NCBI GenBank assembly: GCA_022340545.1
Contig: JAJDNV010000197.1
Span: 1 to 43,649, forward strand
Reading direction: 5' to 3'
Length of the DNA stretch: 43,649 nucleotides
Source: Acidobacteriota bacterium
GTDB taxonomy: Bacteria; Acidobacteriota; Vicinamibacteria; Fen-336
Shown: piece by piece, positions 5,669 to 28,006 of the stretch
Layout: each line of letters begins with the position of its first letter
Position numbering within the stretch: position 1 is the first letter of the stretch
Notes under the pieces: model-generated
The model's input: the letters and a program-made list of their open reading frames with translations, nothing else
The model's database searches: none
Told to the model about the DNA's origin: nothing
Translations under genes and position numbers: made by a program

Positions 5669-8002
5669 ATGCCCGGCACTCCCCCGCTCCGCGGCTTCGT
5701 TCTTCAACCGACGTACCGCGTCGAGTCCGGGCGACCCGTCGTCCACCTCTACGGGCGGCTCGAGGACGGCCGGACGTTCCTGGTGCGCGACGGCCGCCTG
5801 GTCCCGCACTTCTACGTGGAGGCGAGGGACGCCGCCCACGCCCGCGAGCGCGGGGCGCGGCGCCAGGTGGAGACGGACCGGGTGACGCTGGTGGGTCAGC
5901 CCGCGGTCCGCGTGGAGGTCCCCACGCCCTCGGACACGCCACCACTGCGCGAGAGGCTGGGCCGGGCCGGGATCGCCACCTACGAGGCCGACGTGCGCTT
6001 CGCGATGAGGTACCTCATCGACCACGGCGTCCGCGGCTCGGTCGAGATTCGCGGGCAGGGCCACGCACGTTCGGGGGTGGGGGTCGTCTTCGACGATCCC
6101 GAGATCGGACCGGCGGACTGGACGCCCCGCCTCGGAGTCCTCTCCTTCGACATCGAGACCGACCCGCAGGTCCGGCGGCTGCTCTCGATCGCGATCCACG
6201 GGTGCGGGGTCACGGAGGTCCTGCTCCTCACGCCGCCCGGCACGAGCTGCCCGGACGGGGCGCGGCCCTTCCCCACCGAGAAGGAGCTCCTGGCCGGGTT
6301 CTGTGAGCGCGTGCGCGAGATCGACCCCGACGTGATCACGGGGTGGAACGTGATCGAGTTCGATCTCGCCGTGCTTCAACGCCTCGGGGGCCCCCTCGGG
6401 GTGCCGCTGGAGATGGGGCGCGGCCCGGGAGCGCTCCGCCTCCGGTCGACGGGCTCGGCCCGCGGGCTCCGTGAGGCCCTCGTTCCCGGCCGGGTGGTCC
6501 TCGACGGGATCCCGCTCCTGCGGGGCGCGTTCGTCCGGATGGAGGACTGGAGCCTCGACGCCGTGGCCCGCGAGATCCTCGGCGAGGGCAAGACCCTCAC
6601 CGGCCGCGGGAGGGGCGAGGAGATCCTGCGCCTCTTCCATGAAGACCGCGAGCGCCTCGTCGAGTACAACCGCACCGACGCGCGGCTGGCCCTCGAGATC
6701 CTGGAGCGTCTCCATCTGGTGGAGCTGGCGGTCGAGCGGAGCCGGCTGACCGGGCTGCCCCTCGACCGGGTCTCCTCCTCGATCGCCGCCTTCGACTTCC
6801 TCTACCTGTCCGAGCTGGGGCGGCGCGGGATCGTGGCGCCGAGCGTCGGCGCGTTGGACACCGAGCCGGAGCCGCAGGGGGGCGGGCACGTCCTCGAGCC
6901 GCTGCCCGGGCTCTACTCCAACGTGATCGTGCTCGATTTCAAGAGCCTCTACCCCAGCCTCATCCGGACGTTCCAGATCGACCCGCTGAACCTGATTCGC
7001 CCGGGCACGGGGGAGGCGCGGGACGAGGCCGATCCGATCGTGGCGCCGAGCGGGGCCGCCTTCGCGCGCCGGAGGGGGATCCTCACCGAGATGCTCGACG
7101 AGATCATGCCCCGGCGCGAGGCGGCGAGGCGAGCCGGGGACAAGGTGACGGCCCACGCGATCAAGATCTTGATGAACTCCTTCTACGGAGTCCTGGGGAC
7201 GCCGGCCTGCCGCTTCTACGACCCCCGCCTGGCCAACGCGATCACGAGCTTCGGGCGCGAGGTCCTCCTCTGGTGCAAGGAGAGGGCCGAGGTCGAGGGA
7301 CGCCGCGTGCTCTACGGCGACACCGACAGCCTGTTCGTGGAGTCAGGGGCGGGTGCGGCCGAGGCGGCCCGGCAGCTCGGCGAGACGCTCGCCGACGAGC
7401 TGACCCGGGACCTCACCGCGCACATCTCCCGTCGCTGGCGCGTCACGAGCCGCCTCGAGCTGGAGTTCGACCGGCTCTACCGGCGACTGTGCCTCCCGGC
7501 CGTGCGCCGCGGAACCGCCGGGGCCCGCAAGCGCTACGCGGGGCTGGTCGAGGACGGGCGGGTCGTCTTCACCGGGATGGAGGCAGTGCGCGGGGACTGG
7601 ACGGACCTTGCCCGGGAGGTCCAGAGAGAGCTCTACGGAAGGCTCTTCCGCGGGCAGCCGATGGAGGAGTACCTGCGGCAGGTGGTGGCGGACCTCCGCG
7701 CCGGGCTTCACGACGACCGCCTCGTCTACCGCAAGTCGCTCCGCAAGCCGCCGGAGGAGTACACGACCACGACACCGCCCCACGTGGCGGCGGCGCGCAA
7801 GATCCCGGGCAAGCGCCGGGGACGCGTGGCCTACGTCATCACGACCGCCGGCCCGGAGCCCGCCGAGGACCGCCGCAGCCCCATCGACTACGAGCACTAC
7901 CTGGACAAGCAGGTGCGGGCGGTGGCGGAGCCGGTCCTCGCCCTGCTGGGGCTCGAGTTCGGCAAGGTGGCGGGCACCGACCGGCAGCTGTCCCTGTTCT
8001 GA
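5669..8002 (+). CDS. polB: DNA polymerase II (family B DNA polymerase)
   Basis: A 777-residue protein, close to the 783 of E. coli Pol II. The proofreading exonuclease motifs are intact: Exo I FDIETD (D161, E163), Exo II NVIEFD (D232) and Exo III YNRTD (333-337). The polymerase motifs are also intact: motif A DFKSLYPS (423-430), motif B with K499 and NSFYG (503-507), and motif C YGDTDS (549-554). A KRYAG thumb motif follows. In characterised bacteria Pol II restarts stalled forks and performs error-prone or error-free bypass of lesions; this role is taken from the family. The preceding leader is short and lacks an obvious SOS box. The next gene starts 36 bases downstream. Confidence 0.95.
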   Translation: MPGTPPLRGFVLQPTYRVESGRPVVHLYGRLEDGRTFLVRDGRLVPHFYVEARDAAHARERGARRQVETDRVTLVGQPAVRVEVPTPSDTPPLRERLGRAGIATYEADVRFAMRYLIDHGVRGSVEIRGQGHARSGVGVVFDDPEIGPADWTPRLGVLSFDIETDPQVRRLLSIAIHGCGVTEVLLLTPPGTSCPDGARPFPTEKELLAGFCERVREIDPDVITGWNVIEFDLAVLQRLGGPLGVPLEMGRGPGALRLRSTGSARGLREALVPGRVVLDGIPLLRGAFVRMEDWSLDAVAREILGEGKTLTGRGRGEEILRLFHEDRERLVEYNRTDARLALEILERLHLVELAVERSRLTGLPLDRVSSSIAAFDFLYLSELGRRGIVAPSVGALDTEPEPQGGGHVLEPLPGLYSNVIVLDFKSLYPSLIRTFQIDPLNLIRPGTGEARDEADPIVAPSGAAFARRRGILTEMLDEIMPRREAARRAGDKVTAHAIKILMNSFYGVLGTPACRFYDPRLANAITSFGREVLLWCKERAEVEGRRVLYGDTDSLFVESGAGAAEAARQLGETLADELTRDLTAHISRRWRVTSRLELEFDRLYRRLCLPAVRRGTAGARKRYAGLVEDGRVVFTGMEAVRGDWTDLAREVQRELYGRLFRGQPMEEYLRQVVADLRAGLHDDRLVYRKSLRKPPEEYTTTTPPHVAAARKIPGKRRGRVAYVITTAGPEPAEDRRSPIDYEHYLDKQVRAVAEPVLALLGLEFGKVAGTDRQLSLF

Positions 8003-9167: not shown

Positions 9168-10232
9168 TCAGCTCGCGAAGGGCTCGAGCGGGACGTCGCA
9201 GTCGGAGCAGCGCGCGAACCCGGTGCGGTACTGCCCGCCGCACTCCGGGCAGAAGGCGGCGGCCGAGGCGTCGCCCGGTGACGGGTCCTCCAGCTCGGGC
9301 ACACCGGCCCGCGCGGCCTCCCGGGCGACGAGATCCAGCGTCATCGCCTCGACTACCGACTCCCCGCCACTCTCGGGCCCGTCCCCCGCCGCCTGCTCCC
9401 GGCGCAGCCGCTGCTCCAGGCGACGGAACTCCTGCGGGTCCAGGAGCAGCGCGGCCGCGGCCAGGGGCTCGAAGCCGAACGAGGTCTCCCGCGCGACGAG
9501 AGCCGGGGCGTGGACGGCCGCGGGCGGAAACAGGGCCAGGGGGAGCATCCGTGAGCCGAGCGCCCACCCGCGCACGCCGACGCGACGAAGCAGCCGGACG
9601 CTGACGGAGAGGACGGCGAGATAGGCGAGAAGGAAGAGAACTCCGGCCTGCAGCAAGGACGGTCTCCACGCGAGATCGGGAAGGACGCTCGCCGGGAGCA
9701 CCACGAAGAAGGCGACGAACGCGGCACCGCTCAGGACCTTGAGCATCCGGAGGTCCTTCGCCTGCTCAAGCCGGCGCCGGCGCAGGGCCGCGAGGTCGCA
9801 CCGTCGCCGCAGGGCGCGCCGGATGAGGGCGAGTCGCCGGGGGCGAGCCGTGAGACGCAGCTGCTCGACGAGCGCGGCCAGCTCCATCGCGGCCGACGGA
9901 TGGGTGGCCTTCAGCTCGAGGCCGGGCCCGAGGCACACGTGCCCATCCTCGACCGCGACGCGCTCGATGTCCTCGTAGGCGACGAGTCGTCGCCTCCCGT
10001 CACCGCTCGGCGAGAGCAGCACGCCGGTCTCGTTGGCCCGAAAGCCGAGCGACGGGACGAGCACGCTCTCCGAAGCCGGCAGGAAGCCGACCCACCGCCA
10101 CCCCGGTCCCTCGAGCCGGAAGTGGCGACCCCACAGAGAGGTGAAGAGGGCCTGGCCGGGGCGCACCCGTACGAGGCAGTCCAGGAGATAGGCCGCCACG
10201 AAGAACGGAAGCAGCTCGCCAACCAGGCCCAT
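9168..10232 (-). CDS. Membrane protein with C-terminal zinc ribbon, unknown function
   Basis: A 354-residue protein I do not recognise. It starts with a hydrophobic segment (ELLPFFVAAYLLDCLV). A soluble region at about 30-120 resembles a PH-like small beta domain (LGFRANETGVLLSPSG, YEDIERVAVEDGHVCLGPGLELKA). An Arg-rich cytoplasmic-looking stretch follows, then two to three helices at about 165-235. The C-terminus carries a four-cysteine zinc-ribbon motif: CPECGGQYRTGFARCSDCDVPL (quote by ends CPECGG and CSDC). That knuckle is common at the end of prokaryotic membrane-associated proteins. It lies 10 bases downstream of the DUF2167 gene on the same strand, so the two form an operon. Confidence 0.6.
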   Translation of the reverse strand: MGLVGELLPFFVAAYLLDCLVRVRPGQALFTSLWGRHFRLEGPGWRWVGFLPASESVLVPSLGFRANETGVLLSPSGDGRRRLVAYEDIERVAVEDGHVCLGPGLELKATHPSAAMELAALVEQLRLTARPRRLALIRRALRRRCDLAALRRRRLEQAKDLRMLKVLSGAAFVAFFVVLPASVLPDLAWRPSLLQAGVLFLLAYLAVLSVSVRLLRRVGVRGWALGSRMLPLALFPPAAVHAPALVARETSFGFEPLAAAALLLDPQEFRRLEQRLRREQAAGDGPESGGESVVEAMTLDLVAREAARAGVPELEDPSPGDASAAAFCPECGGQYRTGFARCSDCDVPLEPFAS

Positions 10233-10242
10233 CAGCGACAGC

Positions 10243-11088
10243 TCAGGCCTTGACCTCGGTGCTGAAGATGGCCCGGAGGATCTTGCGGATCGCCGCCACC
10301 ACCCCGAGTACGAACACGATCACCAGCTTCCCGCCCTTGGCGAGGAGCTTGACCAGCGCCGCGAGGAGACCGGTCTTGGCCGCGGCGGCACCGGCCCCGC
10401 CCACGACCAGGGCGGCGAGCCCGTATTTCGCGATCTTGTCCCCCTCGCGGAACTCGGCGTACCTGTGGCCGGTCTTGTAGCCAAAGCCACCCAGGAGCAG
10501 GTCGAGGTGGGGCCGGGCGAGGGCGATCTGGGTCGCGTCGTCGACGAGGGTGGCCGACACGAAGCCCCGGCGGCCCAGGAGGCGGACATTGAAGTTGACG
10601 ACGTCGCCGCCCTCGTCGTCGCGGCCGAGGATGGCCCAGGTCAGGTTGTTGGTCGTCTCGTCGTACCGCGGCGGCGTCTGCCAGCCCACGACGTGGATCC
10701 CGGGGATCCCGCGCTCGGCGCGGACCTTGTTGGCCTCCTCCGTGCCCTCCCGGATGCTCTCGAGAATGGCGTCCGCGTCGATGTCGTCCTTGTCGTCGTC
10801 CCGGACGTAGCCGACCTCACGCTCCTCGAAGATCACAAACCAGGTGGCGTTCTCGTCCGCCCCGGTGACCATCCCCAGCTCGGAGCCGTCGGCCACGTTG
10901 CCCATCTCCTCCATGAGCGTCTTCGTGTCCTCCGCGTCCAGGAACACGTAGCCCGCCGGCAGCTGAAGCTCGGCGATCTGCCCCAGGTTGACGGTCTGTG
11001 GGCCGCTCTGCCAGTTCAACGCGGGCTGGGCCCACAGCCCCAGCGGAGTCAGAAGAAGGGCCAGGGCCCCGACGATCGGTCTCCTCAT
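10243..11088 (-). CDS. DUF2167 membrane-anchored protein
   Basis: A 281-residue protein with a strong GGAGGTG ribosome site before ATG 11088. A cleavable signal peptide ends near WAQPAL. The central domain carries the DUF2167 hallmarks: a GPQTVNLG-type opening, LPAGYVFLDAEDT, WFVIFEE, VGYVRDDD, and VVGWQTPPRYDETTNNLTWA (quote by parts VVGWQTPPRYD and NLTWA). Two hydrophobic segments near the C-terminus (about 220-240 and 253-272) flank a lysine-rich loop. Proteins of this family are membrane-anchored with the DUF on the periplasmic side and have no established function. It is the promoter-proximal gene of a two-gene unit with the zinc-ribbon membrane protein. Confidence 0.8.
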   Translation of the reverse strand: MRRPIVGALALLLTPLGLWAQPALNWQSGPQTVNLGQIAELQLPAGYVFLDAEDTKTLMEEMGNVADGSELGMVTGADENATWFVIFEEREVGYVRDDDKDDIDADAILESIREGTEEANKVRAERGIPGIHVVGWQTPPRYDETTNNLTWAILGRDDEGGDVVNFNVRLLGRRGFVSATLVDDATQIALARPHLDLLLGGFGYKTGHRYAEFREGDKIAKYGLAALVVGGAGAAAAKTGLLAALVKLLAKGGKLVIVFVLGVVAAIRKILRAIFSTEVKA

Positions 11089-11390
11089 CGCTCACCTCCG
11101 GGGCCCGAAGGGCCCGGCTGGTCCGGCCCGCCACCCCCCATTCGTGGAGGCGGGTCTGCCGGTGTCGGCCGTGATGAGCAAGGCCCGCACCAGAACGACA
11201 AGTGGCTCTGGCCGCGACACTTCCCTCGGTCGGCACCTCGAGGTGGCCACCCTCGCTGGCCGAAATCCAGACGGACGGCTGTCGGGAGAACGGCGTTCCC
11301 GCTCCTCACGCGCCCGAGGGAAGAGGCCGTATCCTTGCTGGATAGTCCCAGCGGGTGGCGGCCCCGGTCGCGCGCCCAGGGGAGGTGTCT
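11089..11390. promoter_or_regulatory. 302-base divergent intergenic region
   Basis: This region separates the DUF2167 gene (minus) from the large membrane protein (plus). On the minus side a GC-rich hairpin (CCGGGGCCC, GAA loop, GGGCCCGG) lies just upstream of the DUF2167 ribosome site. On the plus side a GATAGT box near 11340-11345 is a possible -10, and GGGGAGG at 11379-11385 is the ribosome site for the GTG at 11391. I see no gene in it. Confidence 0.35.
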
Positions 11391-14300
11391 GTGCGTCGAC
11401 GCGTCGCGCCGTTCGCCCTGCTCGTCCTCACCGCCGCTCTGGCCCTGGGCGGCACCGATCCCGCTCTCGCCCAGCCCATCTCGCGCCAGGACCTGCCGCC
11501 CGACCTGCGGCCCTGGGTGCCATGGGTTCTCGACGAGGTTCCGGGGCTCGGCTGCCCGAAGGTGCAGGGGACGCCCGTCTGCGTGTGGCCGGGACGTCTC
11601 GATCTCGACCTGACCCGGACCGGCGGGACCTTCACCCTCCGCGTGCGGGCCGACCGGGAGGCGGACCTGTTCCTCCCTGGAACCGCCCAGCTCTGGCCAC
11701 TCGACGTCCGGCTCGACGGCCGGGCGGCGCCGGTCTTCGGCAAGGGTGGGGTCCCGCGGCTCCGCATCCCCCCCGGGCGCCACCTCGTGTCCGGCCGCTT
11801 CGTCTGGTCACGGCTGCCCGAGTCGCTGCGGGTCCCGGGCACGATCGGCCTCGTGGAGCTGAGCCTCGACGGCCGTCCCGTGTCTCGTCCGAGGCGCGAG
11901 CAAGGAGGCCTGATCTGGCTGCGCGCGCGCGACGACGAGGCGGCGGGCGAGGGCGAGAGCCTGCGGCTCCAGGTCTTCCGGCACGTGGCGGACGGCATCC
12001 CTCTCTTCGTGGAGACGCGCCTCCAGCTCGAGGTGTCCGGTCGCGCCCGCGAGGTGACGTTTCCGGAGGCCCTTCTCCCGGACTCCGTTGCCGTCGCGGT
12101 GAGCGGAGATCTGCCCGCCCGCGTCGAGGACGGGACGCTCCGCGTCCAGGTGCGGGGCGGCCGGTACGTGGTGCGCGTGCGGGCGCGGATCGACGGACGT
12201 CCGGAGGCCGTGGCTCGTCCGCCGAAGGCCAACGACGCCGCAGGCGGAGCCGGCGTCGAGGCCTGGCCGGAGAGGGAGGTCTGGGTGTTCGCGGCGAACG
12301 AGGACCTGCGTCAGGTGGAGCTGTCCGGCCCGCCGGCCATCGACCCCTCGAGGACGGAGCTCCCCGACGGCTGGCGCACGCTTCCCGCGTTCCTGGTCGA
12401 GCCCGGGGCCGCGCTGACGATCGCGACGGTTCGGCGCGGCCTCCCCGAGGCGGCCCCCGACGCCGTGCAGCTGTCCCGCGAGATCTGGCTCGACCCCGAC
12501 GGGCGGGGGGCGAGCGTGCGCGACACGTTCGGAGGAACGCTCCATGCGACGTCGCGCCTCGACCTCCTGGCCCCCGGCACGCTCGGGCGCGTCGCCGTCG
12601 ACGGCCTGGACCAGCTCGTCACCGCGAATCCCGAGACCGAGACCGCCGGCGTCGAGCTGCGCCGGTCCGCCCTGCAGATGGAGGCCGACTCGCGGCTCGC
12701 CTTCGGGGGAGGGCTGCCCGCCGTGGGCTGGTCGACGGGCGTCGAGTCTCTCCACGCTCGTCTGCACCTCCCTCCCGGCTGGACGATCCTCGGCGCACGC
12801 GGCGTCGATCACCTGCCCGGGACCTGGACCTCGCGCTGGACGCTCCTGGGTTTCTTCTTCGTGCTGCTGGTGGCGTTCGCTGCCTACCGGCTCTTCGGGC
12901 CGCGGCACGCCGTGCTCGCGGTGGCGACGCTCGTCCTCACCCATGGCGAGCCCGGCGCGCCCTTCCTCGTCTGGCTGAGCCTCCTCGGCGCGATTGCCCT
13001 CCGGCGCGTCGCGTCTGAGGGACGTCTCGGAAGCCTGGGACGGATCTGGTTCCTGGTGAGCGCGGCGGTGCTCGTCCTCCTCCTCGTTCCCTTCGCCCGC
13101 GACCAGGTGCGCGCCGCGCTCTTCCCCCAGGTCGCGCCCGGCGGCGCGCAGTACGGCGTCGAGCGCAGCGCCCGTCAGTCCGGGATCGCGGGCGGCGCGG
13201 TCGGAGGTGTGGGCGGCGGGATGCAGGACGTAGACGAGATGTCGAACGTCCCGGCGAAGACGCCAGCGGCCCCGGCCGCCTCCGAAGTCCCACTCCAGCA
13301 GGTGCCTGAGGAAGAGATCGCCCGGGACAAGGAGGGCGCGATGCGGCAGCTCGCGGGCGAAGGCCGGCGGGCCTCCCTTGCTGAACAGGTCAGCGTCGTC
13401 GCCTACAACAAGGCCCTCGAGCAGGACCCGAAAGCCGTCCTGCAGACGGGACCCGGCGTCCCGACCTGGACGTGGAGCGGCCACACACTGAGCTGGACCG
13501 GACCGGTGGGTCAGGACCACGAGATGCGGCTCTACCTTGCCTCCCCCGGTCTCAACCGCGTGCTCACGGCCCTGCGGCTCGTTCTCCTGGGCCTTCTCGC
13601 CGTCGTCCTCGTCACCGGTCGGTGGCCGACCCTCCCCGGCCGGGGCAAACGGGGAGCGGCCCCCGTGGCCACGGGTCTCACCGCGCTCCTCCTCCTGGCC
13701 ACCTCGGGAGCCCGCGCCGCCGCGGCCCCGCAGACTCCCAGCCCGGAGATGCTCCAGCAGCTGAAGCAGAAGCTCACGCGTCCGGAGCCCTGCGAGCCGG
13801 ACTGCGTGACGACACCGAGCCTTCACCTGCGGCTCGGGGGGCGGACGCTGGAGGTGACGGCCGAGGTGCACGCGTCTGCCGATGGCACGTGGGCACTGCC
13901 CGGCCCGCTCGCGAGCTGGGGCGCCTCGGAGGTGCGCGTCGACGGCGTCCCGACGGTGGCGGTGGCTCATCTGCGGGACGGATTCCTCCACGTGCGCCTG
14001 CCGCGCGGCGTGCACCGGATCGTCGCCTCGGGCCCGGTGCCTCCCGGCGACAGCTTTACCCTGCAGTTCGCCAACCCGCCCCGCCGTGCCCGCGCCACCG
14101 CCCCGGGATGGGAGGTGAGCGGTCTCCGCGTCGACGGACCGCCGGAGGCGTCGATCCTGCTCTCACGCCGGCTGGCTGCGCGCACTGCTGGCGCCGCGGT
14201 CGAAGGTCGCTACGCCCCGTGGCTCGAGCTGACGCGGACCCTCGGCTTCGGGGTCACGTGGACGGTACACACGAGCGTGCGTCGGGTGACCCCGCGCGGG

Positions 14301-15629
14301 ACGCCAGTGGCGCTCCGGGTTCCGCTCCTGCCGGGCGAGGCCCCCACCCGCGCCGACTTCGTGGTCGAGGACGGCGAGGCGGCGGTGAGCCTCGGGCGCG
14401 ACGAGACGGAGACGTCCTGGGAGTCGACGCTCGAGCAGACCACGCAGATCGTCCTGGAAGCACCGGAGGGCCGGCCGTGGTCGGAGGTGTGGCGGCTGCA
14501 GTGCAGCACTATCTGGTCCTGCACTGGGGAAGGCCTGCCCCCGGTGAAGCGGATCGAGGGCGGTGTCTTCGCTCCGGAGTACCGGCCCTGGCCCGGGGAG
14601 TCGCTCGAGGTCACACTCGCCCACCCCGCCGGCGTCGAGGGCCAGACGCTGACGCTCGACTCGGTGCGCCTCGAGGCCACGCCGGGGACGCGACTGGAGC
14701 GCCTGCGACTGCAGATCCAGGCGCGCTCGAGCCGCGAGCAGCCGCTGCAGCTCACCCTGCCCGGCGACAGCGAGGTGCAGCAGGTCCGGCTCGACGGCGA
14801 CGAGCGCCCGCCGCGGTCGGAGGGCGGCGAGCTCCGGGTGACGGTGCCCGCGGGTGCCCACAACGTGGAGGTGCGCTGGCAGCAGCCCCGGGGCATTGCC
14901 CCGCTTTACGCGATCCCGCGCGTGGGCCTGCCCGGTCCCGCGGTGAACGTCACCCAGCAGCTCACGCTGCCCCGGAGCCGCTGGCTCCTGGTGACATGGG
15001 GCCCGGCCTGGGGCCCGGCGGTCCTCTTCTGGCCCTACTTCGTCTTTCTCCTCGCGGTGGCCCTCGGCCTCGGCCACATCCCGCAGAGCCCGCTCTCGAG
15101 CACGCAGTGGGTGCTGCTCGGCCTCGGGCTGAGCCAGATCCCGGCCCTGGGCGCGCTCGTGGTCGCCGGGTTCGTCTTCGCCCTCGCCATCCGCCGCGAT
15201 CGGCAGCCCGAGCACGCCTTCGTGTTCGACCTCACCCAGCTGCTGCTCGTGGTCTGGGCGGTGATCAGCCTCGGCCTCCTCTACGTGGCCATCCACACCG
15301 GCCTCCTCTTCCGGCCCGACATGCAGGTGGCGGGCAACGGAAGCACGGACACCGTGCTGCGGTGGTACGCGGACCGGGTGGTCGGCGAGACGCCGGGCGC
15401 GGGGGTCGTGAGCCTGCCCCTGTGGGCCTACCGGGTGGGGATGCTGGTCTGGGCTCTCTGGTTGGCGGCGAGCCTCGTGCGCGCCATCGGCTGGGGCTGG
15501 CGCTCGTTCGGAGAGGGCGGCTTCTGGCGCCGGCTCGGACTGCGGCGCACGCCGCGGACCGGCGAGACGCCGGTGGACGGCACGGCCGGGGTACCGGACC
15601 ACGAGCCCGACGACACGCCACGGGAGTGA
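11391..15629 (+). CDS. 1412-residue two-module membrane protein, unknown function
   Basis: I chose the GTG at 11391 because it has a GGGGAGG ribosome site 5 bases upstream and opens a clear signal peptide (basic start, then LLVLTAALALGG, ending near ALAQ). I do not recognise the family. Residues about 30-480 are a beta-rich periplasmic region, followed by three or four membrane helices (about 483-503, 522-540 and 552-575). A Gly/Ala-rich loop containing GGVGGGMQDVDEM follows, then two helices at about 723-744 and 755-775. A second beta-rich region spans about 780-1195, and four helices (about 1205-1395) and a charged tail finish the protein. The two beta regions share a pattern: W..xVRLDG or VRVDG, then RIPPGRH..xG or RLPRGVHRIVASG. 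This suggests an internal duplication. Confidence 0.7.
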   Translation: MRRRVAPFALLVLTAALALGGTDPALAQPISRQDLPPDLRPWVPWVLDEVPGLGCPKVQGTPVCVWPGRLDLDLTRTGGTFTLRVRADREADLFLPGTAQLWPLDVRLDGRAAPVFGKGGVPRLRIPPGRHLVSGRFVWSRLPESLRVPGTIGLVELSLDGRPVSRPRREQGGLIWLRARDDEAAGEGESLRLQVFRHVADGIPLFVETRLQLEVSGRAREVTFPEALLPDSVAVAVSGDLPARVEDGTLRVQVRGGRYVVRVRARIDGRPEAVARPPKANDAAGGAGVEAWPEREVWVFAANEDLRQVELSGPPAIDPSRTELPDGWRTLPAFLVEPGAALTIATVRRGLPEAAPDAVQLSREIWLDPDGRGASVRDTFGGTLHATSRLDLLAPGTLGRVAVDGLDQLVTANPETETAGVELRRSALQMEADSRLAFGGGLPAVGWSTGVESLHARLHLPPGWTILGARGVDHLPGTWTSRWTLLGFFFVLLVAFAAYRLFGPRHAVLAVATLVLTHGEPGAPFLVWLSLLGAIALRRVASEGRLGSLGRIWFLVSAAVLVLLLVPFARDQVRAALFPQVAPGGAQYGVERSARQSGIAGGAVGGVGGGMQDVDEMSNVPAKTPAAPAASEVPLQQVPEEEIARDKEGAMRQLAGEGRRASLAEQVSVVAYNKALEQDPKAVLQTGPGVPTWTWSGHTLSWTGPVGQDHEMRLYLASPGLNRVLTALRLVLLGLLAVVLVTGRWPTLPGRGKRGAAPVATGLTALLLLATSGARAAAAPQTPSPEMLQQLKQKLTRPEPCEPDCVTTPSLHLRLGGRTLEVTAEVHASADGTWALPGPLASWGASEVRVDGVPTVAVAHLRDGFLHVRLPRGVHRIVASGPVPPGDSFTLQFANPPRRARATAPGWEVSGLRVDGPPEASILLSRRLAARTAGAAVEGRYAPWLELTRTLGFGVTWTVHTSVRRVTPRGTPVALRVPLLPGEAPTRADFVVEDGEAAVSLGRDETETSWESTLEQTTQIVLEAPEGRPWSEVWRLQCSTIWSCTGEGLPPVKRIEGGVFAPEYRPWPGESLEVTLAHPAGVEGQTLTLDSVRLEATPGTRLERLRLQIQARSSREQPLQLTLPGDSEVQQVRLDGDERPPRSEGGELRVTVPAGAHNVEVRWQQPRGIAPLYAIPRVGLPGPAVNVTQQLTLPRSRWLLVTWGPAWGPAVLFWPYFVFLLAVALGLGHIPQSPLSSTQWVLLGLGLSQIPALGALVVAGFVFALAIRRDRQPEHAFVFDLTQLLLVVWAVISLGLLYVAIHTGLLFRPDMQVAGNGSTDTVLRWYADRVVGETPGAGVVSLPLWAYRVGMLVWALWLAASLVRAIGWGWRSFGEGGFWRRLGLRRTPRTGETPVDGTAGVPDHEPDDTPRE

Positions 15630-15845: not shown

Positions 15846-15964
15846 ACTCACACTGAGCTCAGGCTGCCCGGACAGGTGGTGTGGCGGGCCGGGGATTCTT
15901 GGCGCCGAGGAGACTTCATTCCCCGTTGTCCAGCGCTGTATCGCTGACGACCTCAGGACGAAGG

Positions 15965-17449
15965 ATGGGACAAGCTCCGCTGCTCTCAATTCGCGGAATC
16001 AAGAAGAGCTTCTCGGGCGTGCAAGCCCTCCTCGACGGAAGCCTGGATCTTCACCGCGGCGACATCCACGCGCTCTGCGGCGGCAATGGCGCCGGCAAAT
16101 CGACTCTCTTGAACATTCTGATGGGCTTCATCAAGCCCGATCAGGGAGAGATCTTCATCGACGGCAAGGAGGTGCGCTTCACGAATGCGAGGGAAGCGCT
16201 GCATGCGGGCATCGCGATCGTTCAACAGGAGCTCAGCGGCGTTCCTCACTTGACGGTGGCCGAAAACATTCTTCTCGGCGCCGAACCCTCCCGTTATGGC
16301 TTCGTCGACTTCCGTCAACTGAACGAGCAGGCCGAGAGGCTACTGCAATCCCTGGGTTTCGATCTCGACCCCACCGCAACCATGGATACCCTTGGCATCG
16401 CCTCTCAGCAATTGGTGGAGATCGCCAAGGCCCTCTCTCATCGCAATGCCGATATCCTGATCTTCGATGAGCCGAGCTCGGCCCTCGGCGAAGAGGACGC
16501 GGGCCGGCTGTTCGAGGCGATGCGCGACCTGGCATCGTCCGGCAAGAGCATCATCTTCGTCACCCACCGCATTGCGGAAATCTTCGCCATTGCCAGCACC
16601 TACACGGTGCTCAAAGACGGTGCGCGAGTGCAATCGGGAAAGATCAGTGACATCACTCCCGAGCGCCTGATCGAGGTAATGGTCGGCGGCGACGTAGAAG
16701 GAGAATTCATCAAGGACAACACGCCCGGGAGCGCCCCTCTGCTTGAGGTGCACGGCCTGACCCGCGCACCGCGTTTTGCGGATGTCTCCTTCACGCTCCA
16801 CGAGGGAGAGGTGCTTGGGATCTACGGGCTGGTTGGATCGGGGCGCACCGAGGTCCTGGACACCATATACGGTCTCTGCCGGGGTGACTCCGGTACTGTC
16901 TCCGTGCGTGAAAGGCCGCTCAAGGGAGGATCGCCCAGCGAAGCTCTCGACGCCGGTGTGGCCTACCTCACCGAAGACCGAAAGCGCAGCGGCCTCGTCC
17001 CTCGGGCGTCCGTGGGAGACAACCTGTCGCTCTCGGTGCTGTGGCGTATTCAGCGATGGGGTTTCATCCGTTTCCCGGAAGAGCGGTCGCGCGTCGACAA
17101 GGCGGTCGGCATGATGCGGATCAAGACCCCGACTACCAGCGAGCAGGTGCAGAACCTGAGTGGAGGCAACCAGCAGAAGGTGGTGCTTGGTCGTTGTGTT
17201 CTGACGGAGCCAAAGGTGCTTCTCCTCGATGAACCCACCCGTGGCGTTGATGTCGGGACGAAGAGAGAGCTCTACCGCTTCATCTCGAGCTTTGCGCGGG
17301 CCGGAGGTGCCGTAGTCATCGTTTCGTCTGAGATGGAAGAGGTCATGGGCGTGAGCGACCGGGTCCTTGTTCTTCGCAAAGGACGTCTTGCTTCTGTCTT
17401 GTCACGCGAGGAGGCGACTCGGAAGCAGATTATGATGGCCGCCGTCTGA
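15965..17449 (+). CDS. Sugar ABC transporter ATP-binding protein, RbsA/MglA type
   Basis: A 494-residue protein with two fused ABC domains, the length usual for CUT2 sugar importers. Domain 1 has Walker A GGNGAGKST (39-47), a degenerate signature ending SQQLVEIAKAL, Walker B ILIFDEPSSAL and a switch histidine in FVTHR. Domain 2 has the family's degenerate Walker A (GLVGSGRTE), a consensus signature NLSGGNQQKVVLG, Walker B VLLLDEPTRGVDVG and a serine (VSSEMEE) in place of the switch histidine. This asymmetry is normal for RbsA. It powers import through the permease encoded 10 bases downstream. I chose ATG 15965 over an upstream in-frame start because homologous sequence begins at LLSIRGIKKSF. 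Confidence 0.92.
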   Translation: MGQAPLLSIRGIKKSFSGVQALLDGSLDLHRGDIHALCGGNGAGKSTLLNILMGFIKPDQGEIFIDGKEVRFTNAREALHAGIAIVQQELSGVPHLTVAENILLGAEPSRYGFVDFRQLNEQAERLLQSLGFDLDPTATMDTLGIASQQLVEIAKALSHRNADILIFDEPSSALGEEDAGRLFEAMRDLASSGKSIIFVTHRIAEIFAIASTYTVLKDGARVQSGKISDITPERLIEVMVGGDVEGEFIKDNTPGSAPLLEVHGLTRAPRFADVSFTLHEGEVLGIYGLVGSGRTEVLDTIYGLCRGDSGTVSVRERPLKGGSPSEALDAGVAYLTEDRKRSGLVPRASVGDNLSLSVLWRIQRWGFIRFPEERSRVDKAVGMMRIKTPTTSEQVQNLSGGNQQKVVLGRCVLTEPKVLLLDEPTRGVDVGTKRELYRFISSFARAGGAVVIVSSEMEEVMGVSDRVLVLRKGRLASVLSREEATRKQIMMAAV

Positions 17450-17459
17450 GGGCGCGACC

Positions 17460-18458
17460 ATGAGGCCTGCACTCCGGCTCGCAAAGAACTACGGAACGGT
17501 CCTGGCTTTCGTTCTGCTCTGCGTCCTGGTGGGTCTCGCCTGTCAGTGCCGGGTCATGAAGGGGCAGTGGGAAGAGAACGTCTTCTTCACGCCTGAGAAC
17601 TTCATGCTGATCCTGTATCAGATCTCCATCAACGGCATTCTCGCGATCGGTATGACCTTCGTCGTGATCTCGGGCGGCATCGACCTGTCGGTCGGCTCGG
17701 TATTGGCCTTTGCCGGCATGCTTGCCGCGTCCTTTTCCACCAGCTCGACCACCGTGACGCCATGGAGTGGAACCTACACACTCGCGGTGCCGATCCTGTT
17801 TGCCCTGGCGGGAGGAGTCGTTTGCGGCGCGTTCAATGGTTGGGTTGTCTCCCGGTTCCGGATTCAGCCTTTCATCGCAACGCTCGGAATGCTCCTCGCC
17901 GCACGGGGAGCAACGATGGCCCTCACCGGAGGCAATCCGATCTCATCGCTCGACGCTCGCCTGCGGTGGCTCGGAACTGGCAGAATCTGGAACGTCCCCG
18001 TCCCCATCGTCATCTTCGTGATCGTGTTCGCCGTCGCCTGGGTCATTCTCAACAGAACCGTTCTCGGGCGCTATGTCTACGCAGTCGGTGGAAATGAGAG
18101 GAGTGCCCGAACCTCCGGCATCAAGACCGGACAGATCAAGATCTGGGTCTATGTCATCTCCGGCCTTCTTGCCGGTGTGGCGGGGATCATCCTGACCGCC
18201 AAGACGGGATCCGGCCAGACAAACGCCGGGAGCTCGTACGAGCTCGACGCCATTGCCGCCGCCGTCATCGGGGGGACCAGCTTGTCCGGCGGCGTCGGCA
18301 GGTTGTCGGGGACACTGTTCGGGGCGTTGATCATGGGTGTGATGAACAACGGCTTGGACATCCTGGGGGTTGAAAGCTACTACCAGTTGATCATCAAGGG
18401 CGCGCTCATCCTCACGGCCGTGATCATCGATCCCTCGCGCAAGGCGGCGGATTCCTGA
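17460..18458 (+). CDS. Sugar ABC transporter permease, RbsC type
   Basis: A 332-residue inner-membrane protein of the BPD_transp_2 family with about 8-10 hydrophobic helices. Recognisable segments are the ISGGIDLSVGSV loop, GGVVCGAFNGWVVSRFRIQPFIATLG (quote by parts CGAFNGWVV and QPFIATLG), the YAVGGNERSAR coupling region and the C-terminal AAAVIGGTSLSGGVGRLSGT segment. All are typical of RbsC/XylH permeases. Only one permease gene is present, so it would act as a homodimer with the RbsA-like ATPase. The spacing of 10 bases from the ATPase stop and 34 bases to the binding protein supports one transcript. Confidence 0.92.
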   Translation: MRPALRLAKNYGTVLAFVLLCVLVGLACQCRVMKGQWEENVFFTPENFMLILYQISINGILAIGMTFVVISGGIDLSVGSVLAFAGMLAASFSTSSTTVTPWSGTYTLAVPILFALAGGVVCGAFNGWVVSRFRIQPFIATLGMLLAARGATMALTGGNPISSLDARLRWLGTGRIWNVPVPIVIFVIVFAVAWVILNRTVLGRYVYAVGGNERSARTSGIKTGQIKIWVYVISGLLAGVAGIILTAKTGSGQTNAGSSYELDAIAAAVIGGTSLSGGVGRLSGTLFGALIMGVMNNGLDILGVESYYQLIIKGALILTAVIIDPSRKAADS

Positions 18459-18492
18459 GAATGAAGCCTTCAGTCGACGACACGGAGAGTCC

Positions 18493-19503
18493 ATGAAGAA
18501 GCGACTCCTGTTGCTCGCTGCGAGCGGGACTGTATTGACTTCATGCCTGCTGTTCGAAGCGGCGCCCGCTCCGACGAAGGTGAAGATCGCCGTGCTCATG
18601 TACGGCCACAAGGCGGAGTTCGTCCAGATGATGGTGCGTCATGGCAAGCAGCATCCTGCCGTGACCAGCGGCCTGGCCGCGTTGACCTTCTATGACGGCC
18701 GCTACGACCCGGCCGTGCAGAACGACCAGGCACAGCTGGCCATCAACCTGAAATACGATGCCATCATCGTGAACCCGATGGACTTCGAGGCCAACATCGA
18801 TGTGGTGACAAAAGCCAATGCGGCACACATCCCCGTGATTGTCACCAACGCCCGCCTGGATACCCAGGAGATGACTTCCGCAGTGGATTCAGATGACGTT
18901 CTCGGCGGCTACATGGAGGCCAGGAGCGTCCTGCAGGAGCTCGGCTGCAAGGGCAACGTGGTGATCATCGAGGGTCCCAAAGGGGGTTCCGGCGAGATCC
19001 AACGGGGACAAGGCAACGAAAAGGCCATCTCCGAATGCCCTCCGGGAGCTGTGAGAATCCTGGAACGAAAGACCGCCAACTGGTCACGTTCGGAAGCGAT
19101 GGACCTGATGCAGAACTGGCTGCAGAAGCATAGAGGCCGAATCAACGGTGTCATCGCCCAGAACGACGAGATGGCATTGGGCAGCATTGAGGCGATCAAG
19201 GCGGCCGGGCTGAATGTTCACGACTATGCAATCGCCGGTATCGACGGTGTGTCCGATGCCCTCAACGCGGTCAAACGCGGCGAGATGACCTCCATTCTGC
19301 AGGACGCCAAAGGCCAGATGCAGGCCAGCATCGACATCGCAATCCGTGCAGTCCTTGGGCCAGGCTATCTGCCGATGTCTGCGATCTGGAAACAATACGA
19401 AGAGGACATGGAGTGGAACAGCGGTCAGTCGAAGCACTACCTCGTTCCCTGGACGATCGTGACACCCACGAACGTCGACGGATTGCTGGAGAGCCGCAAG
19501 TAG
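18493..19503 (+). CDS. Sugar-binding lipoprotein, RbsB-like periplasmic binding fold
   Basis: A 336-residue protein with a GGAGAG ribosome site before ATG 18493. The signal ends in an LTSC lipobox, so it is anchored to the membrane rather than free. The mature part is a type I periplasmic binding protein (Peripla_BP_4): VKIAVLMYGHKAEFVQMM, the NLKYDAIIVNPMDF segment, AAHIPVIVTNARLD, a GNVVIIEGPKGGSGEIQRG hinge region, INGVIAQNDEMALG and DYAIAGIDGVSDALNAV. These segments define the RbsB family. The ligand is probably a monosaccharide or polyol but is not readable from sequence. It follows the permease, so the operon order is ATPase, permease, binding protein. Confidence 0.9.
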   Translation: MKKRLLLLAASGTVLTSCLLFEAAPAPTKVKIAVLMYGHKAEFVQMMVRHGKQHPAVTSGLAALTFYDGRYDPAVQNDQAQLAINLKYDAIIVNPMDFEANIDVVTKANAAHIPVIVTNARLDTQEMTSAVDSDDVLGGYMEARSVLQELGCKGNVVIIEGPKGGSGEIQRGQGNEKAISECPPGAVRILERKTANWSRSEAMDLMQNWLQKHRGRINGVIAQNDEMALGSIEAIKAAGLNVHDYAIAGIDGVSDALNAVKRGEMTSILQDAKGQMQASIDIAIRAVLGPGYLPMSAIWKQYEEDMEWNSGQSKHYLVPWTIVTPTNVDGLLESRK

Positions 19504-19562
19504 AGCAGGCAGACTGACCCCTTCTCGAAACGACCCGGGATGTCGTGGACGGCCAAGCCAAG

Positions 19563-21098
19563 ATGAAGAATCTCGTCGTCGGGCTTGACAGCAGCACCAC
19601 TGCCACCAAAGCCATTGCCTGGAGACGCGACGGCACGATCGCCGGGCATGGCCGCAGCCCCATCCCTCTACTCAGCCCGGGTCACAACCGCTACGAGCAG
19701 GACCCCGAAGACTGGTGGCGTTCCGCCTGCGGCGCTCTACAGGGACTGTTCCAGAAAGTTGCGCCCAGCGATGTGGCCGCCATCGCGATCGCCAATCAAC
19801 GCGAGACCTTCGTGCCTCTCGGGCAGGACGGCCATCCGGTGCGGCCAGCAATCGTGTGGCTTGACCAGCGCTGTGAAGAGGAGGTGGCCTGGCTCGCCGG
19901 CCGCGTCGGCAGCGAGAGGATTCACCAGATCACCGGCAAGCCCCCTGACATGGGGCCCGTGGCCTACCGCATCGCCTGGATGCTGCGGCACGAGAAGGGG
20001 CTGTTCGAGCGCACTGTCATGTTTGCCGACGTCCATGCCTATCTGGCGCGGCGTCTCACCGGCACCTTTCAGACGAGCTGGGCGAGCGCAGATCCCTTGG
20101 GCATGTTCGATCTGGAGGAGGAGGCCTGGTCGCCGGAGATACTGAGCGCACTCGATCTCTCGCGGGAACGGCTGCCGCAAGCCGCGTGCCCTGGAACTGT
20201 CATTGGCACCGTGGGTGAGTCGGCTGCCGCCACGACTGGCCTCCACCCCGGCACTCTGGTCGTGGCTGGCGGAGGAGACGGACAAGCCGCGGGCCTCGCT
20301 GTCAACTCTCTCTCTCGGGAACGCGCCTACCTCAATCTAGGAACTGCGGTCGTATCGGGTGTCTACTCGAACGAGTACCGCATCGGAAGAGCGTGGAGGA
20401 CGATGGGAAGCTGTACCGGACGAGGTTTCTACCTCGAAACCAGCCTGCGGGCCGGAACGTTTCTCACCGACTGGTTTGCACACCACGTGTGCCAGGCCGC
20501 AGAGGGTGACCGGAGCATCTTCGAGCAGCTCGAAGCCGAAGCGGCGGCGGTCCCAATCGGTAGTGGCGGACTCCTCACCCTGCCCTACTGGGGCGCCGTC
20601 ATGACGCCGTATTGGGATCCTCGAGCCCGCGGATGCTTCGTGGGGCTCAGTGGATCTCACCGCAGAGGCCAGCTGTATCGGTCGCTCCTGGAGGGTATCG
20701 CCCTGGAGCAGGCTCTCGTCACCGGCATGATAGAAGACGCAACCGGCATGCGGGCGAAGGAATTCGTCGCCATTGGCGGCGGGGCCGCGAGCGATCTGTG
20801 GTGTCAGATCATGGCCGATGCGACTGCCACGACCGTGCGCCGGTCTCGGACCGTAGAAGCTTCGAGTCTCGGGGCGGCCATTTGTGCGGCCGCCGGTGCG
20901 GGCTGGTACAGCAATGCGGTGGAAGCGGCCGAAGCGATGAGCGACAACACCCTCCGTGACACGCAGCCCTCAAGCGAAGCTTGCGCACGATACGCCGAGC
21001 TGTTCGGAATCTACCGCGAGCTCTATCCCACTCTCCGCGAGACCTTCTCGAAGCTGTCGCAGTTCAGGCCGGAGAAGAGCCGCGAGACACGAGGATAG
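19563..21098 (+). CDS. FGGY-family carbohydrate kinase
   Basis: A 511-residue cytoplasmic kinase. The N-terminal phosphate-1 loop VGLDSSTTATKAIAW and the WLDQRCEEEVAWL segment mark the FGGY fold. The C-terminal domain has the LNLGTA, LTLPYWGAVMTPYWDPRARG, LLEGIALEQALV and FVAIGGGAASDLWCQIMAD segments, the last being the family signature around the adenosine site. The closest general resemblance is to xylulokinases, but the substrate cannot be fixed. I prefer ATG 19563 to an in-frame GTG at 19545; neither has a strong ribosome site. The gene lies 59 bases after the binding protein, implying phosphorylation of the imported sugar. No isomerase, dehydrogenase or regulator accompanies it. Confidence 0.88.
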   Translation: MKNLVVGLDSSTTATKAIAWRRDGTIAGHGRSPIPLLSPGHNRYEQDPEDWWRSACGALQGLFQKVAPSDVAAIAIANQRETFVPLGQDGHPVRPAIVWLDQRCEEEVAWLAGRVGSERIHQITGKPPDMGPVAYRIAWMLRHEKGLFERTVMFADVHAYLARRLTGTFQTSWASADPLGMFDLEEEAWSPEILSALDLSRERLPQAACPGTVIGTVGESAAATTGLHPGTLVVAGGGDGQAAGLAVNSLSRERAYLNLGTAVVSGVYSNEYRIGRAWRTMGSCTGRGFYLETSLRAGTFLTDWFAHHVCQAAEGDRSIFEQLEAEAAAVPIGSGGLLTLPYWGAVMTPYWDPRARGCFVGLSGSHRRGQLYRSLLEGIALEQALVTGMIEDATGMRAKEFVAIGGGAASDLWCQIMADATATTVRRSRTVEASSLGAAICAAAGAGWYSNAVEAAEAMSDNTLRDTQPSSEACARYAELFGIYRELYPTLRETFSKLSQFRPEKSRETRG

Positions 21099-26464: not shown

Positions 26465-28006
26465 CTACGCCCGCGCCCCCTCGAAGATGGCGCGCACGGC
26501 CTGGAGGGTGTTGGCCTCGTGAGCGGGCTTGTCGGGACGGTGGCGCTTGACCCGGGCAAAGCGCAGGGCGAGCCCACCCGGGTAGCGCGGCGACTCCTGG
26601 ACCTCGCCAAACGCGACCTCCACCACCAGCTCGGGACGCACGTGCACGGTCCACTCGTCGCGGCCGGTCTCCAGCTCGAGCAGCGCTTCGGTCTGCCAAC
26701 GCAGCATGGCGTCCGTGAGGCCCTTGAAGGTCTTGCCGAGCATGACGGGCTGGCCGCTCGCCTCGTCGCGCGCCCCGAGGTGAAGGTTGGAGAGCCAGCC
26801 CTTGCGGCGTCCACTCCCCCACTCCGCGGCGAGGACGATCAGATCGAGCGTGTGCGCGGACTTGAGCTTGAGCCAGTGGAACCCGCGCTGGCCGGCCACG
26901 TACGGGGCCTCGAGCGACTTGGCCATGAGCCCCTCGTGCCCGGCCTCGAGGGCCCTCGCCAGGAAGCGCTCGGCGTCGTCGCTCGCCCTGGTCACGAGAC
27001 GGGGCAGTCGCCGATCCGCTGACACGAGGCGCGCGAGGCGCTCGGCTCGCTCGCGGTAGGTCAGGTCGATGAGGGGGCCCTCTCCTTCCAGGAAGAGGCA
27101 GTCGAAGAAGAAGGTGGAGAGAGGGAGCTTCTGCCGGGCAGCCGCGACATTCTTCGATCGGCCCAGCCGCTTCATCGTGACCTGGAACGGATGGGGGCGA
27201 CCGTCCTCTCGGAGGGCGAGGGCCTCCCCCTCCACGACCAGCTCCCCGGCCGGGAGGGCGCGGGCCCACTCGACCACTTCCGGGACCCGCTCCGTCACGT
27301 CCTGGAGCTGCCGCGTGAAGACGCGAACCTCGTCGCCCGCTCGGTGCACCTGGATGCGGGCCCCGTCGACCTTGTACTCGAAGGCGGCCTCCCCCAGCCG
27401 CGCGAGGGCCGCGTCCACGTCGTCGGCCGGGCTGGCCAGCATGGGGGCGACCGGCGAGAGGAGGCGCAAGGAGAAGCGGCCGAGCCCCTCGACTCCCTCG
27501 GTCAACGCCACGCGCGCGAGCTCGCCCACGTGGCCGGCAAACATCGCCGCCTGCCGCACCTGTCCCGGCGGCAGCCCGGCGGCGTGGGCAATCGCCTCGC
27601 GGAGGACACCCTCGAGCGCCCCCTGTCGCACCTCGCCCACGAGAAGCTCGGCCAGAAACCGCCGGCCCCCGGCATCGGTCCGCAGAAGGAGATCCCGGAG
27701 CGCGCCGAGGCGTCGCTCGGACGAGCCGGGGCCCGTCTCGGCGGCGATCACGTCCAGGGTGCGATCCACTTCGACGAGGGTAGGGGCCTCGCCGGCCGGG
27801 TCCCCACCGGGCATCGCCGACTGGATCGTTCTCCAGCCGATGCCCACGCGCCCCTGCGGCACCGTGCCGGTGAGGTAGAGGGCAACGAGCTCGGTGTCTC
27901 GCCCCGTGCTCTGACGAAGGACGTCCGCGATCAGCCTCACCTTCTCCGTCCGACGGGACGTGGCGCGGACTCGCTGGACGAGGTCGACGAGACGCCGAAG
28001 GTGCAT
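26465..28006 (-). CDS. ATP-dependent DNA ligase
   Basis: A 513-residue protein of the bacterial LigB-like group with an N-terminal DNA-binding domain (about 1-185), an adenylation domain and an OB-fold domain. The nucleotidyltransferase motif I is EYKVDGARIQVH, with the adenylated lysine K212. Motif III lies near STFFFDCLFLEGEG, motif IV at EGLMAKSLEAPY, and motif V at WLKLKS. Motif VI residues occur toward the C-terminus near LRFARVKRHRPDKP. Such ligases act in repair alongside the NAD-dependent replicative ligase. The start codon at 28004-28006 lies inside the conserved end of a dispersed repeat (28007-28123), so that element probably supplied the initiation region. Confidence 0.93.
   Translation of the reverse strand: MHLRRLVDLVQRVRATSRRTEKVRLIADVLRQSTGRDTELVALYLTGTVPQGRVGIGWRTIQSAMPGGDPAGEAPTLVEVDRTLDVIAAETGPGSSERRLGALRDLLLRTDAGGRRFLAELLVGEVRQGALEGVLREAIAHAAGLPPGQVRQAAMFAGHVGELARVALTEGVEGLGRFSLRLLSPVAPMLASPADDVDAALARLGEAAFEYKVDGARIQVHRAGDEVRVFTRQLQDVTERVPEVVEWARALPAGELVVEGEALALREDGRPHPFQVTMKRLGRSKNVAAARQKLPLSTFFFDCLFLEGEGPLIDLTYRERAERLARLVSADRRLPRLVTRASDDAERFLARALEAGHEGLMAKSLEAPYVAGQRGFHWLKLKSAHTLDLIVLAAEWGSGRRKGWLSNLHLGARDEASGQPVMLGKTFKGLTDAMLRWQTEALLELETGRDEWTVHVRPELVVEVAFGEVQESPRYPGGLALRFARVKRHRPDKPAHEANTLQAVRAIFEGARA

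Follow-up and report, generated by a model that had tools for sequence, protein, structure and literature searches.

The DNA analysed here is a stretch of 43,649 nucleotides from an Acidobacteriota bacterium (assembly GCA_022340545.1, contig JAJDNV010000197.1), hereafter referred to as the window, in which a large gene on the forward strand encodes a protein that an original prediction had described as a giant, unrecognised membrane protein built from two similar halves. The longest open reading frame (ORF) starts at the first GTG codon (11355-15629) and corresponds to 1424 amino acids (aa), while translation from the GTG at 11391 gives 1412 aa. The latter is the better start, because it has GGGGAGG immediately 5' of it and its product opens with a clean signal peptide (MRRRVAPFALLVLTAALALGG...ALAQ). 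The codon-position GC content of the ORF (0.78/0.54/0.90) corresponds to that of coding sequence in this genome, which has a single copy, and the ORF is a real gene conserved in relatives; a promoter scan around the gene region found nothing. Residue numbers refer to the 1424-aa form unless stated otherwise, and are converted to the 1412-aa form by subtracting 12. The features of the gene are collected in Table 1.

Table 1. Features of the two-unit membrane protein gene, in order along the window (residues in the 1424-aa form; module M1 is a part of this protein and distinct from the M1 aminopeptidase family).
Feature	Residues	Position	Strand	Basis
Whole gene, 1412 aa, GTG start		11391..15629	+	open frame, coding-like GC at third codon positions, GGGGAGG upstream, gene conserved in relatives
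Signal peptide	13-40	11391..11474	+	hydropathy core 20-38, basic n-region; cleavage after ALAQ predicted from sequence
Ectodomain 1, module A1, invariant Cys67 and Cys76	66-200	11550..11954	+	match to A2, probability 98.2; Cys in 31/31
Ectodomain 1, module M1	200-320	11952..12314	+	match to M2, probability 79.2
Ectodomain 1, module B1	362-486	12438..12812	+	match to B2, probability 62.9
Unit 1 membrane helices a-d		12840..13100	+	hydropathy, AlphaFold2 helices
Unit 1 periplasmic loop d-e: variable Gly-rich part, then conserved QTGPGxPxW		13101..13544	+	lengths in 31 members; low model confidence
Unit 1 membrane helix e		13557..13613	+	hydropathy, AlphaFold2 helices
Internal signal-like helix before ectodomain 2		13656..13718	+	hydropathy; basic loop ahead
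Ectodomain 2, module A2, invariant Cys813 and Cys817	812-945	13788..14189	+	profile comparison, 31-member conservation
Ectodomain 2, module M2	950-1078	14202..14588	+	profile comparison
Ectodomain 2, module B2	1080-1206	14592..14972	+	profile comparison; third VRLDG...PxGxH copy
Unit 2 membrane helices a-d		15018..15296	+	hydropathy, AlphaFold2 helices
Unit 2 periplasmic loop d-e, GLLxxPDMQVAGxGS...LxWYxDR		15300..15413	+	conserved over 31 members
Unit 2 membrane helix e, then basic cytoplasmic tail		15414..15491	+	hydropathy, AlphaFold2 helices, loop charges

The two halves of the protein are homologous, in agreement with the similarity noted in the original prediction, and derive from an ancient internal duplication that predates the family. 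When profiles of half 1 (40-770) and half 2 (771-1424) built from 31 sequences were compared with hhalign, they matched with a probability of 99.0 and a score of 157 over 497 columns, against a top score of 25.8 among 20 column-shuffled controls; with 13 sequences the probability was 98.5 and the score 131 (20 shuffles at or below 26.0, reversed control 20.7), and six sequences gave a probability of 97.7. This similarity spans the ectodomain and reaches the first helices. Within a single protein the halves share only about 20% identity, compared with 38-42% for the same half across proteins, which places the duplication before the origin of the family. In a tree of halves all 31 second halves form one clade on a branch of 2.09; the rerooted node has a support of 0.11, so that the age of the duplication rests on the identities and not on the tree. 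In the hhalign comparison of single modules, those of the two ectodomains pair in the expected register (A1 with A2, M1 with M2, B1 with B2; Table 1) and also across kinds (A2 with B2, probability 90.8; M1 with A2, 85.5; A1 with B2, 76.7; M1 with B2, 46.2), seven of the 15 module pairs outscoring 10 shuffles each and the other eight being weak or absent. Because modules match across kinds, a single beta module may have given rise to the ectodomains themselves.

The family used for these comparisons comprises the window protein and 30 near-full-length relatives aligned with it (32-53% identity to the window protein), which come from Acidobacteriota, from one deltaproteobacterial metagenome-assembled genome (MAG) and the genomes around it, and from Azoarcus. 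A match in a genome of the same genus is 75% identical and one in a genome of the same family 53%, and a search of contigs returned four loci, among them those of the deltaproteobacterial MAG and of a Thermoanaerobaculia MAG, at 44-45% identity. The family was detected by profile search in 12 of 297 Acidobacteriota genomes, fragments counted, and in 30 of 96 genomes in a search centred on the deltaproteobacterial MAG, a tally that counts the MAG itself and fragments (for G341, a fragment of 70 positions only). Within the order of this MAG 13 of 14 genomes carry the gene, as expected for a housekeeping rather than an accessory function. A single plasmid record among 72,556, Azoarcus sp. KH32C plasmid pAZKH, carries a member, the full-length WP_015452075.1 (34.4% identity, annotated as hypothetical protein), and none was found in the phage records and viral contigs searched. 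Both units lie within one chain in every intact member seen. A natural split into two genes was considered because of half-length matches and yielded no convincing case: in G316 a pair of ORFs overlap in different frames, which was attributed to a frameshift, and the half-length matches in G345 and G365 stop at contig ends. The 31-member set omits contig-cut or frameshifted copies (G001/L004, G316, G281, G073:C20, G345, G365, G329, G351, G336, G340 and G420) and also G339, G367, G370 and G389. One genome (G331) holds two full-length, divergent copies of the gene (L074, L075).

Each unit consists of a beta-rich ectodomain of three modules followed by five helices, an arrangement that agrees with the periplasmic region and helix group proposed for each half in the original prediction. 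Family-averaged hydropathy delineates the signal peptide and eight more hydrophobic stretches, and AlphaFold2 (AF2) models show five helices behind each ectodomain at matching places, with a signal-like helix ahead of ectodomain 2. Averaged over the 31-member alignment, loop charges are net basic in each of the seven putative cytoplasmic segments, the n-region of the signal peptide included, and net acidic or neutral in each of the six putative periplasmic ones. A topology of 11 membrane helices after signal cleavage, two periplasmic ectodomains and a cytoplasmic C-terminus is thus well supported. Across the 31 members 89 columns are invariant, including Cys67, Cys76, Cys813 and Cys817; two invariant cysteines open each ectodomain, and Cys67-Cys76 and Cys813-Cys817 would be expected to form disulphides. 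The previously described pattern VR(L/V)DG...(I/L)PxGxH is present in both halves, as VRLDG...IPPGRH at residues 106/126 and VRVDG...LPRGVH at residues 848/870, and a third copy in module B2 ends in VPAGAH at residue 1152 (all in the 1412-aa form). The Gly-rich loop reported for the first half does occur, with GGVGGGMQDVDEM at residue 605 of the 1412-aa form; as a family feature it does not hold, as it is not conserved in relatives. Loop d-e of unit 1 ranges from 101 to 202 residues over the 31 members, and its variable part contains 3-16% Gly and is disordered in the model. The most conserved parts between helices are the QTGPGxPxW segment and the GLLxxPDMQVAGxGS...LxWYxDR loop.

Comparison with family libraries bears out the view of an unrecognised protein. 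The window protein matched no Pfam or NCBIfam family at E<=1; a scan of 13 members gave only single stray Pfam matches (best E 0.016) and none in NCBIfam, while PADLOC and PHROGs, each applied to three members, provided nothing usable, a PHROG match of L005 over 42 residues of the helix region (E 0.0097) being set aside. The best sequence match in the PDB, EMC subunit 7 over 62 positions, had an E-value of 0.44 and is not significant. The HExxH zinc motif is absent from all 31 members, and an LPxTG-type motif is absent from the window protein and found in one of the 31. The refuting outcomes named in the original prediction, differing folds of the two regions or strong similarity to some known family, did not overturn it, and the observation that had been made from the letters of the sequence stands.

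A comparison with CreD suggests itself, because CreD proteins consist of an export helix, a beta-rich ectodomain and about five helices, and the same order of parts recurs in each half of the window protein. The protein could on this basis be a fused, doubled CreD-type protein whose halves are both very distant versions of CreD with a role in envelope integrity, as in Stenotrophomonas, where one study reports that loss of creD harms division and envelope integrity (PMC4689548). However, CreD (PF06123) is not among the Pfam matches of the 13 members at E<=1, and in profile-profile comparisons with sets of 9 CreD, 10 distant CreD-like and 26 M1 sequences the best probability for any part of the protein was 2.6, the CreD sets reaching 1.9 at most, whereas comparing the CreD set with the distant CreD-like one as a positive control gave 97.1. 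The genome of the window, moreover, already carries a separate CreD-like gene. A relationship of this kind is unlikely, and only analogy speaks for a role like that of CreD. The distant CreD-like family, which by the same control comparison clearly matches classical CreD, consists of open frames of about 410-570 aa (L098-L110) and is the one found in the window's genome (G000:C105:16040-16411).

Structural comparison provides a different lead. AF2 models of each half were built from five-sequence alignments, and Foldseek searches with the halves separately returned ribophorin I/Ost1, a non-catalytic subunit of the eukaryotic oligosaccharyltransferase (OST), as the best PDB match (prob 1.00, with E 4.6e-7 for half 1 and 2.7e-5 for half 2), followed for half 1 by M1 aminopeptidases. 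The VIA comparison placed M1 N-terminal domains on modules A and B of these low-confidence models with Z of about 8-9 over 105-145 residues, at a root-mean-square deviation of mostly 3-5 A, and in half 1 a second such match extends to strands past the helix block (model 664-690). It could therefore be proposed that the protein is a client-recruiting or glycan-handling subunit working like ribophorin I/Ost1 through tandem M1-N-like modules without catalysis, in line with the two similar, mainly beta-sheet lumenal domains described for Ost1 in a review (PMC7226087). On the other hand, the whole-model TM-scores (template modelling scores) to Ost1 are only 0.12-0.21 and integrins match half 2 equally well, so that the match is a lead and not a classification; the profile comparisons gave no sequence match to M1 N-domains, no ribophorin match was found in Pfam (13 members) or in PDB sequence searches, and no OST-like neighbour lies within the window. 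According to the same review, moreover, Ost1 is a single-helix, complex-bound protein, and OST structures do not bear out the chaperone role once predicted for it by fold. The ribophorin/M1-N-like fold of the modules is therefore tentative and an Ost1-like function rather unlikely. In a bolder version, the protein would be a hitherto undescribed bacterial platform for periplasmic client binding, a pair of ribophorin-I-like units with tandem M1-N-like modules and a five-helix anchor apiece being fused into one chain and serving as a pseudo-dimeric clamp for quality control or glycan handling that has no catalytic partner; this seems improbable. A literature search on Ost1 with aminopeptidase gave nothing useful.

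The genomic neighbourhood was inspected at 30 family loci, two of which are one locus under different ids, and at the Azoarcus locus, with Pfam applied to 10 neighbours only. No recurring partner gene or operon was found across these loci, in agreement with the earlier remark that no recognisable partner adjoins the gene. The neighbours vary and include a tetratricopeptide repeat (TPR)/DUF1570 protein, histidine kinases, a methyl-accepting chemotaxis protein (MCP), a helix-hairpin-helix protein, PA14, an isoaspartyl peptidase and others; those of the Azoarcus member differ from the window's, with the isoaspartyl peptidase gene downstream and overlapping by 4 bases. Histidine kinases or an MCP adjoin the gene at L074, L035 and L067, which would fit a membrane sensor whose ectodomains relay an envelope signal to a nearby kinase or chemoreceptor. 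Such neighbours nevertheless vary in type and adjoin the gene at some loci only, and the cytoplasmic parts of the protein amount to short basic loops and a tail of variable length (22-126 residues), which makes signal relay a quite improbable function. The suggestion in the original prediction that a duplicated ectodomain builds an envelope complex or polymer recalls the repeated beta modules of fibres, the pilus backbone RrgB being among the structural matches at Z 7.7, and is nonetheless highly improbable given 11 membrane helices, both units in one chain, and no operon, partner, repeat expansion or LPxTG-type sorting motif in the window protein.

Several observations concern the surroundings of the gene. 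The nearest gene in the window, encoding a DUF2167 protein (10243-11088), is divergent and unlinked, and was rejected as a partner: three of 20 other genomes carry DUF2167 (G007, G012 and G016), none of them together with the protein. The DUF2167 gene and a downstream gene for a 354-aa protein ending in a zinc ribbon occupy 9168-11088, and at L038 and L039, loci of two DUF2167 genomes, a stretch resembling this zinc-ribbon end lies near DUF2167; a literature search on DUF2167 offered nothing useful. On the other side, 15881-21098 holds a sugar ABC importer cassette (ATPase, permease, binding protein and FGGY kinase) with a GC content of 0.60-0.65 compared with about 0.70 in the surroundings. 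At L036, the locus from the same genus, this cassette is missing and 0.67 kb takes the place of 5.6 kb, pointing to insertion or loss. Genes for a family B DNA polymerase (5669-8002) and an ATP-dependent DNA ligase (26465-28006) are also present in this bacterial contig.

Taken together, the window protein is most likely a non-enzymatic, stand-alone platform for binding or scaffolding in the periplasm that serves envelope homeostasis (probability roughly 0.4), because neither a catalytic signature nor a conserved partner gene was found. In this regard, the duplication, the loop charges, the presence in 13 of 14 genomes of one order, the invariant cysteine pairs, the lack of HExxH and of any enzyme family, and the matches to Ost1, which is non-catalytic and membrane-anchored, were counted in favour. 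Ectodomain 1 would be exported by the N-terminal signal peptide and lead into five helices and a cytoplasmic turn of basic character; the signal-like helix would then export ectodomain 2, and five more helices would end in the basic cytoplasmic tail. The paired, non-equivalent ectodomains might thereby act as a two-armed periplasmic clamp on an envelope client, either a polypeptide or a glycan, anchored by the two five-helix domains and serving envelope homeostasis; both client binding and the envelope role are inferred. Weighing against this platform are the low confidence of the models (for half 2, a mean predicted local distance difference test, pLDDT, of 61.8 and a predicted template modelling score, pTM, of 0.32; for half 1, 52.6 and 0.33), the membrane parts of the halves, which compared alone align in the same register but score 19.2 and are not significantly similar, the patchy occurrence in Acidobacteriota, and the lack of a partner gene that would point to a function. 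The architecture is far more certain than the functional claim. The protein represents a large, well-conserved inner-membrane family outside Pfam and NCBIfam, a claim of novelty limited to these family libraries, and its ancient duplication and invariant residues provide a clear starting point for structure determination and knock-out.

Among known systems, CreD (PF06123) resembles each half in having an export helix, a beta ectodomain and about five C-terminal helices, as judged from hydropathy and AF2 models, and in being an inner-membrane protein without an enzyme signature; the window protein differs in carrying two such units in one chain and in having no creBC genes adjoining in the window. 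The N-terminal domain of M1 aminopeptidases (PF17900) may be similar in fold to modules A and B, as far as the low-confidence models go, whereas the window protein has no catalytic domain. Ribophorin I/Ost1, the top fold match of both low-confidence half models, may share tandem similar beta domains outside the membrane and differs, according to PMC7226087, in having one membrane helix within the OST complex instead of about 11 helices. If the ribophorin-like fold is true, this family would be a bacterial example of the ribophorin architecture.

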